DNA from: Chamaesiphon sp. 341R_metabat_111
GTDB lineage: Bacteria; Cyanobacteriota; Cyanobacteriia; Cyanobacteriales; Chamaesiphonaceae
Length of the DNA: 64,000 nucleotides
NCBI GenBank assembly: GCA_025351825.1
Contig: JANXVE010000052.1
Span: forward strand, 1-64,000
Direction: 5' to 3'
Positions 1 to 1,797 of the stretch are shown here, in pieces. Under the pieces are notes generated by a model. The model had not been told where the DNA came from, ran no database searches, and saw only the letters and a list, made by a program, of their open reading frames with translations. Both the position numbers and the translations under genes were made by a program. How positions within the stretch are numbered: position 1 is the stretch's first letter; each line of letters opens with the position of its first letter.

Positions 1-384
1 ACTACTCTTATTTCCCTCCTGATAAGTCTTGAGAATAAATTTCTGCCAATCCTCATCCACCCGATATGAGCCTTTATCAGTTCGAGTTGATTCAGTCAAT
101 CCAATTAAACCATCCTGCTCCCACTTCTTCACTAACCGCCGGATTGTCCGCTCAGATTTGTCCAGCTTAATAGCTGCTTCCTTGAGTCTTTCTGCATAGA
201 CCCGTTTATCCGTTACTGCCAACAAGCCTTCAATTATCTCTAACTTTTGTTGTGCCGCTGGTGATAATGCAGATGGAATGATTGGAGCCTTGTCATCACC
301 ATCGACTAACAACGTAATCTCATCGGCGCACTCCACGTTTGGGTCAGAAGTACATTGATTTGAGTGATCGTCATGAATAGGCAT
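1..384 (-). CDS. tnsB: TnsB-like transposase, N-terminal 128 residues (runs off left edge)
   Basis: The reading frame begins at an ATG (384-382) preceded by AAGGCGG and stays open to base 1, so only the N-terminus is visible. It translates as an acidic leader, then LSPAAQQKLEIIEGLL, a winged-helix-like stretch (ERLKEAAIKLDKSERTIRR, then LVKKWEQDGLIGL) and KTYQEGNKSS. From memory this closely parallels the N-terminal DNA-binding domains of TnsB from cyanobacterial type V-K CAST elements. The DDE catalytic core would lie to the left. TnsB binds repeats in the transposon ends and performs strand transfer. It reads away from the adjacent element end, as expected for tnsB. It could instead belong to a related Tn7-like element without Cas12k. 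Confidence 0.85.
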   Translation of the reverse strand, partial: MPIHDDHSNQCTSDPNVECADEITLLVDGDDKAPIIPSALSPAAQQKLEIIEGLLAVTDKRVYAERLKEAAIKLDKSERTIRRLVKKWEQDGLIGLTESTRTDKGSYRVDEDWQKFILKTYQEGNKSS

Positions 385-441
385 AAGCCGCCTTGATTGC
401 TAACAATATACTAAGTATAAAACAACTATGTTGTATATGGG

Positions 442-681
442 CCAAATAATCTGTTAATTTTCTTTGATCTGGATGTGACAGGCTCAAATATCTAGTTTCT
501 GACTATTGACATCTATCTTGTTAAAAAGCTGGTAATTGACGCTTAATTTGTTAAATGCAATCTCGTGAATCAATGTTATGATTAGAGATATAAAATTAGT
601 TCTAATCATTGATACGCAATGCTTAGGGCGTATTGTTATTGAGTAGACATTAATCTGTTAAATTGACAGATAATTAGTTAA
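442..681 (-). repeat. Array of five TnsB-site-like repeats in the transposon end
   Basis: Five related 16-17 bp repeats lie in the same orientation at 442-457, 508-524, 538-554, 646-661 and 665-681. On the plus strand the consensus is roughly GACNNNTAATYTGTTAA. The two outermost copies are nearly contiguous and abut the terminal TGTACA; the inner ones are more widely spaced. Multiple spaced transposase sites are the hallmark of Tn7-family ends. Copy 442-457 is the least conserved, lacking the GAC. Confidence 0.75.
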
Positions 682-687
682 TGTACA

Positions 688-894
688 TATCAATTCCCGT
701 TTTTTTGGGAATTGACTATCCGATCCAAAAACATCAGAATAGATCCAAAGCATAGATCCAAAGTCAAATAATGGATCTACTCTAGGGTCAAAGTCTAGCC
801 AACAGCCGATCGACGATCGGGTAGACTCGATCGTTCACAACTCCTAAAATTTGTCCGGAAAAGTTCGATCGATTAGCTCTCACCAGATGACAAC
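688..894. other. Flank between the transposon end and thrB
   Basis: No gene is seen. An 8 bp inverted repeat (691-698 with 707-714) encloses a loop of G plus seven T, so it is not a classical terminator. Further right is a short imperfect direct repeat containing AGATCCAAAG (741-750 and 754-763). No tRNA gene is recognisable here, although native V-K CASTs often insert beside tRNA genes. Confidence 0.5.
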
Positions 895-1797
895 CTAAAT
901 TCTCGTCACCGCTCCCTGCCAATCTACTTGCAGGGGGTGCGCTTGAACTTGAATATTGTGAGTTTCCCAAGCTTTCTTCATCGCCGTAGCAACGACTTCA
1001 GCCCGCGCTGTGGCTGTAATTGCTAGCAAAGTTGGTCCAGCACCGCTAATTACCATCCCGTAGCCCCCAGCCGCAATTACGGCGGACTCAACATCAGCAT
1101 AGCCAATAATTAACTTTTGACGATAGGGTTGATGGATCTTGTCTACCAATCCGGCAGTGAGCCACTCTGCATTCCCCGTCTCCAAACCCCGAATCATCAA
1201 GCCTAGATGAGCCGTATTAAAAATTGCATCAGCGCGGCTGTATTCGGCTGGGAGGACACTCCGCGCCTCTGCTGTCGAGAGTTCAAAATCGGGAATAGCA
1301 ACTACGGGTACGATACTATCATGCCAGGGAATATCGGCGATCTCCCAACCATTCCCTGCCGTAGCTGCCAAGCGACAGCCACCAATCAGGGCGGGTACCA
1401 CATTATCGGGATGTCCTTCCATTTCGATCGCTAGTTGCAGCACTTCTGACTGGGAAAGTGGGTTGCCAGCGAGGGTGTTGGCACCGAGCAAGCCGCCGAC
1501 AATCGCGGTTGCCGAGCTGCCCAGTCCTCTGGCTAACGGTACACCGAGCTGAATTTCGAGCTGAATCACTGGGGGTGTGCGATCGATCCGCCCATACAGT
1601 TTGAGAAAGGCTTGATAGGCGAGATTGCTAGTACCTGTATCGACTTTAGCCGCTTCCAATCCCTGGACGGCAATTACCAGATCTGCGCTATCGATCGGGG
1701 TAAAGGTAAACTCGTTATACATGCTCAAAGCAGCACCGATACAGTCAAATCCCGCGCCCAGATTGGCGGTGGTAGCAGGTACGCGAATTTTTGTCAT
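895..1797 (-). CDS. thrB: Homoserine kinase
   Basis: This GHMP-family kinase phosphorylates L-homoserine with ATP in the cytosolic threonine branch of the aspartate pathway. The 300-residue product has the N-terminal substrate-side motif PATTANLGAGFDCIGAAL (about residues 7-24), the ATP-binding motif PLARGLGSSATAIVGG (about 87-102) and the C-terminal GHMP motif ISGAGPTLLAI. Length fits the family. The gene stands alone and leftward. ilvA, which consumes threonine, is about 20 kb away and not co-transcribed. Identification is secure. Confidence 0.96.
   Translation of the reverse strand: MTKIRVPATTANLGAGFDCIGAALSMYNEFTFTPIDSADLVIAVQGLEAAKVDTGTSNLAYQAFLKLYGRIDRTPPVIQLEIQLGVPLARGLGSSATAIVGGLLGANTLAGNPLSQSEVLQLAIEMEGHPDNVVPALIGGCRLAATAGNGWEIADIPWHDSIVPVVAIPDFELSTAEARSVLPAEYSRADAIFNTAHLGLMIRGLETGNAEWLTAGLVDKIHQPYRQKLIIGYADVESAVIAAGGYGMVISGAGPTLLAITATARAEVVATAMKKAWETHNIQVQAHPLQVDWQGAVTRI

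Follow-up and report, generated by a model that had tools for sequence, protein, structure and literature searches.

The window, by which we mean the whole analysed stretch of 64,000 nucleotides, starts where contig C131 itself physically ends; this contig measures 70,755 bp and belongs to a genome assembly comprising 4.06 Mb in 202 contigs. The first base of the window lies within an open reading frame which starts with an ATG at position 384 of the minus strand and reads leftward off the sequence at base 1. Since the window edge coincides with the end of the assembled contig, this gene, tnsB, is truncated. The following features were assigned to this part of the window:

1..384, minus strand: first 128 codons (5' part) of tnsB, truncated where the contig stops (open reading frame and match to ShTnsB)
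385..687, minus strand: transposon right end, on the side of tnsB, containing TTAAC..TGTC-type repeats
682..687, no strand: TGTACA terminus of the right end, whose first 18 bases, TGTACATTAACTAATTAT, recur at the left end (C125:22612)
688..692, no strand: target-site duplication TATCA; second copy at C125:22607-22611
693..894, no strand: chromosomal flank, continuous with the tRNA-Gly side in the congeners G152 and G124 (empty site)
895..1797, minus strand: host gene adjoining the site, 300 aa, read by eye

In a phmmer search residues 35-128 of the TnsB fragment align without gaps to residues 33-126 of ShCAST TnsB (E = 1.8e-28, 102 bits), a similarity which, judged from the alignment, lies far beyond chance. 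Pfam assigns the winged-helix/HTH domains HTH_29 and HTH_23 to the fragment, as expected, and the motifs WEQDGLIGL and KTYQEGNK are paired with WEQDGLVGL and KTYKEGNK of ShCAST TnsB. The sequence-only reading, which had described positions 1-384 as a CAST-like TnsB N-terminus whose winged-helix block and both motifs line up with known TnsB, is thus borne out by this match and these domains. The open reading frame which it reported exists and contains the named motifs; its strand has to be given as minus, running from 384 to 1. The TTAAC..TGTC-type repeats within the right end look like putative TnsB-binding sites. The 300-aa host protein encoded at 895..1797 is presumably, judged by eye, of the GHMP-kinase type and homoserine-kinase-like.

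That reading had further considered that TnsC, TniQ, Cas12k and a short CRISPR array might lie to the left of the fragment. These neighbours do exist and were found in the expected order, yet they cannot be reached from C131 and reside instead on another contig of this genome, C125 (47,601 bp), which itself ends inside tnsB. The features of this contig are:

G000:C125:47202-47600, minus strand: C-terminal part of TnsB, 133 residues, matching ShTnsB 446-584 (E = 1.9e-31)
C125:46358-47236: tnsC (E = 1.5e-112 to ShCAST TnsC)
C125:45840-46361: tniQ, 173 aa (E = 9.6e-68 to ShCAST TniQ)
C125:25499-25990: CvkR-like MerR regulator, plain, 163 aa (Anabaena CvkR, Alr3614: E = 2.2e-25)
C125:23598-25460: cas12k (NF038191, 764.7 bits, the cut-off for Cas12k being 150 bits; ShCas12k, E = 5e-194)
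beside cas12k on C125: tracrRNA-like region with antirepeat, predicted by its pairing with the repeat and the truncated repeat
C125:22958-23138: CRISPR array, three identical 37-nt repeats
C125:22828-22860 region: truncated repeat (anchor), preceding the anchor spacer
C125:22612: left end of the transposon (CRISPR end)
C125:22515-22585: tRNA-Gly(UCC) gene beside the left end

Both halves of TnsB accordingly match ShCAST TnsB, while the stretch corresponding to ShTnsB 127-445 (about 0.96 kb, including the catalytic domain) is missing from the genome assembly. The terminal 150 bp of C131 have no match on other contigs of the assembly, so that no repeat is visible at the break. The genes cas12k, tnsC, tniQ and the regulator gene, which is divergent from cas12k, are uninterrupted open reading frames. 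Between tniQ and the MerR regulator gene lies the cargo, which encodes one protein each of the DUF262, LRR and PD-(D/E)XK kinds, a set made up of DUF499 - DUF3780 - DUF1156 methyltransferase - PLD helicase, and an IetA-IetS pair; it is well documented that Tn7-like elements carry defence cargo (PMC8649781). Read base by base, the truncated repeat of the anchor can pair to the tracr antirepeat, AACTATTCTT, with no G-U pair, unlike the array repeats, which need G-U pairs opposite the same antirepeat. Such G-U-free pairing might favour the homing guide.

The two contigs are tied together by the equal duplications at both ends and by the unoccupied sites of two congeners, which align with 81% identity over 366 bp without gaps (G152) and with 87% over 245 bp (G124). 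As the CRISPR end is by convention named the left end (PMC9938897), the window holds the right one. The element amounts to about 26.6 kb, composed of 24,990 bp on C125 (22612-47601), about 957 bp of unassembled tnsB and 687 bp in the window (1-687). Its perfect ends and target-site duplication point to a fairly recent insertion.

On its predicted genes the element is a type V-K CAST with all V-K parts in their usual order: Cas12k, a TnsB of the V-K kind (recognised from two halves, the middle with the catalytic residues lying in the unassembled gap), TnsC together with a short TniQ, an array with a tracrRNA-like region, an anchor at the standard distance, and TGT..ACA ends with a 5-bp duplication, in this case TGTACA twice and TATCA on both sides. 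The anchor protospacer is flanked by TTC where GTN is usual; since GTN is a reported regularity rather than part of the gene-based definition, the assignment to type V-K stands and the element is to be regarded as a variant. As the catalytic part of tnsB falls in the assembly gap, the element is only putatively intact. Gene content thus supports the earlier proposal of an RNA-guided transposon, transposition itself being predicted, whereas the accompanying idea of a "previously unassigned host" carries little weight, as Cas12k is present in 98 of 391 sampled genomes of the same order. Membership in this class is ordinary in cyanobacteria, a phylum rich in such elements. We consider it highly probable that the element is a V-K CAST of the kind described; this reading includes, as proposals, the acceptance of TTC as a PAM and a possible role for the loss of Arg78, both discussed below.

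With ShCAST (Tn7747 of Scytonema hofmannii, type V-K) the element shares homologues of TnsB, TnsC, TniQ and Cas12k, the tracrRNA-like region, 37-nt repeats, TGTACA ends, the 5-bp duplication and the insertion distance of about 63 nt, counted from the edge of the protospacer. It differs in its Cas12k, which is about 50% identical, in having TTC instead of GTN at the anchor, in its cargo, and in carrying Lys and His where ShCas12k has Arg78 and Tyr80. AnCAST of Anabaena sp. PCC 7120 (CvkR = Alr3614) likewise possesses a MerR-type regulator gene divergent from cas12k, a truncated repeat with an anchor spacer and a tRNA gene pointing at the left end (PMC9938897). In contrast to the TTC of the present element, GTN has been reported as the conserved anchor PAM (PMC9938897).

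The anchor spacer CAAGCTGTTGTTGTGG comes right after the truncated repeat ...AATAGTTGAAAG and matches the tRNA-Gly(UCC) gene over 16 nt (C125:22549-22564), the match beginning 63 nt from the left transposon end. ShCAST insertions occur 60-66 nt from the PAM, in Anabaena most often at 63 (PMC10949235), and it is a strong inference that the anchor guide directed this insertion. The PAM of the anchor consists of T33, T34 and C35 of the tRNA anticodon loop, within the wider context CCTTC, which contains no GT. Because the anticodon includes two of these three bases and the PAM region has the same sequence in the empty-site alleles, a former GTN which has since mutated is very unlikely. Neither viral contigs, searched for exact matches of 20 nt, nor plasmids gave a match to the spacers of the array; without such targets these spacers yield no PAM, so that the PAM of this element is read from the single anchor.

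Relatives were fetched from public genomes and their anchors surveyed with no filter on the PAM. In a first survey, which demanded repeats ending in GAAAG, GAGAG or GAAAA and thereby passed over a clade described below, GTN was found at 72 of 73 anchors. Repeated without any limit on the repeat, the survey yielded GTN at 76 of 80 anchors, a set which holds near relatives and hence does not represent 76 independent events, and TTC at the remaining four: the present one and those of loci L180, L181 and L184, which all belong to one distant clade. A GT near the protospacer is found in every other surveyed element and is absent only at the present one. The literature examined, including the report of GTN as the conserved anchor PAM (PMC9938897), contains no account of a divergent Cas12k combined with an anchor other than GTN.

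The Cas12k of the element is itself unusual. Among about 780 sampled genomes its nearest relative is at most 51% identical, and in a tree of 65 sequences its end branch is the longest (1.05 compared to a median of 0.16). Among 89 columns that hardly vary elsewhere, 13 carry a different residue in this protein, R78K and Y80H being two of these changes. At column 78, 94 of the 104 rows compared show Arg, the present protein shows Lys, and L180, L181 and L184 show Trp. Published structures of ShCas12k presumably place Arg78 close to the PAM. The link between residue 78 and TTC was noticed post hoc; a forecast was then written and checked on fresh elements. Where the anchor of these was readable, the only one with Trp78 showed TTC and all eight with Arg78 showed GTN. 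Counter-examples are an element with Asn78 and GTG and one with Cys78 and a GTA-flanked match; as both keep GTN, Arg78 is either unnecessary for GTN recognition in some backgrounds or other residues join in. Residue 78 is, moreover, one change among many in this divergent protein. Thr287 and Arg421, both named in PMC10949235, were considered as the cause of a PAM change and rejected: Arg421 is kept, and Thr287 is replaced by Ser, as in many GTN elements. Taken from sequence comparison, these data suggest a changed PAM preference in a natural Cas12k lineage, possibly caused by the replacement of Arg78 (R78K, close to which Y80H is also found).

The Trp78 clade consists of V-K CASTs in genus g224 of another cyanobacterial order (L180, L181, L184 and L210, in genomes G550, G639, G686 and G514) and provides the only other TTC anchors in standard register. 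Its members also lack Arg78, and their REC1 segment resembles that of the present Cas12k. They differ in that their repeats end in GAAAC rather than GAAAG, their Cas12k is 41-43% identical, and their anchors address the tRNA T-loop, where the target reads GGTTC. With C as the last base of the repeat and GGTTC in the target, an alternative for the Trp78 clade is a GTT PAM shifted by one base and followed by C; for the present element such a one-base shift can be excluded. A larger, quickly built tree groups the element with this clade (SH-aLRT 90), a grouping which may be due to long-branch attraction, of which the program warned.

If the system works as ShCAST does, Cas12k together with the tracrRNA and the anchor crRNA would bind the tRNA-Gly gene, TniQ and TnsC would form the target complex, and TnsB would join the transposon ends about 63 nt downstream, thereby producing the 5-bp duplication. 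Other DNA would be the target of the array spacers, while repression of the system would fall to the CvkR-like protein. The new element in this scheme is that Cas12k would accept TTC (T33-T34-C35) in place of GTN. That the present element, and perhaps the Trp78 clade, represents a natural Cas12k lineage which homes on TTN (TTC) after losing an Arg78-dependent reading of the G at PAM position -3 has, in our estimation, an even chance of being correct.

This reading has to be weighed against a simpler one, according to which the element is an ordinary GTN-preferring V-K CAST and its insertion at TTC a rare off-PAM event without functional meaning. For this lineage there is a single case, the array spacers contribute no PAM information, and the Asn78 and Cys78 elements keep GTN, all of which is in favour of a chance event. 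Nevertheless, the element owns a spacer dedicated to this very site, which lies at the usual distance of 63 nt, and it passed over a GTA-flanked site 14 nt upstream in the same tRNA gene which is used by the CAST of a congener. Furthermore, a GT stands near the protospacer in all other surveyed elements, and residue 78 covaries with the PAM, the fresh data included. We therefore regard an off-PAM event as rather unlikely, if worth serious consideration.

Less probable still, and in our view improbable, is that the element is degenerating, with cas12k and perhaps tnsB decaying. Such decay would explain both the longest end branch among the 65 Cas12k sequences and the break of both contigs inside tnsB, the middle of which is unassembled; it is difficult to reconcile with four uninterrupted genes, with the perfect ends and duplication of a fairly recent insertion, and with the end of C131, which has no second copy in the assembly and thus gives no sign of an inserted repeat. 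Related transposases share winged-helix N-termini and another Tn7-like TnsB is encoded in the genome, on C58, so that the fragment might in principle stem from an ordinary transposon, Tn7-like or Tn5053-like, that is not guided by CRISPR. This origin was rejected and deserves virtually no credence, given that both TnsB halves match ShCAST TnsB best, that the element bounded by the duplication also contains Cas12k, the array and the anchor, and that the empty site is seen in congeners.

The same genome harbours three CASTs of two types, V-K and I-B1. A second V-K CAST (G000:C190:4284-22178; L009, L010), whose Cas12k is 40% identical to that of the first, uses a canonical GTA PAM and an anchor in tRNA-Pro(ggg). 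The two ends of this CAST read TGTACA and TGTACG, and equal 5-bp duplications were not found beside them. The regulator next to its cas12k (L009:18575-19453, minus strand) is a MerR protein of 292 aa fused to HSDR_N, a restriction-enzyme N-terminal domain, whereas the first CAST has a plain CvkR of 163 aa. The third, of type I-B1 (G000:C58:41826-68854; L011, L206), lies beside glmS in the order glmS, TnsB-like, TnsC-like, TniQ, Cas6, Cas8 (Csx13), Cas7, Cas5 and defence cargo matching HmaC, and also encodes a TnsD-like second TniQ family protein of 635 aa.

In the congener G139 a V-K CAST (L157, G139:C609) is anchored in the same tRNA-Gly(UCC) as the present element. It differs by a canonical GTA PAM, by an anchor located 14 nt upstream, and by its Cas12k, which is partial at a contig edge and 39% identical over the aligned part. 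Two congeners thus carry different CASTs in the same tRNA-Gly gene via different anchors and PAMs.

V-K CASTs are DNA-insertion tools which, according to published descriptions, depend on a GTN PAM. A natural effector with proposed TTC homing, together with a candidate residue, makes the basis of PAM choice by Cas12k directly testable, and such a Cas12k could widen the range of targetable sites. If the proposed TTN homing is true, it would have opened sites such as the anticodon loop of tRNA-Gly to these elements and hence given them a different targeting range.
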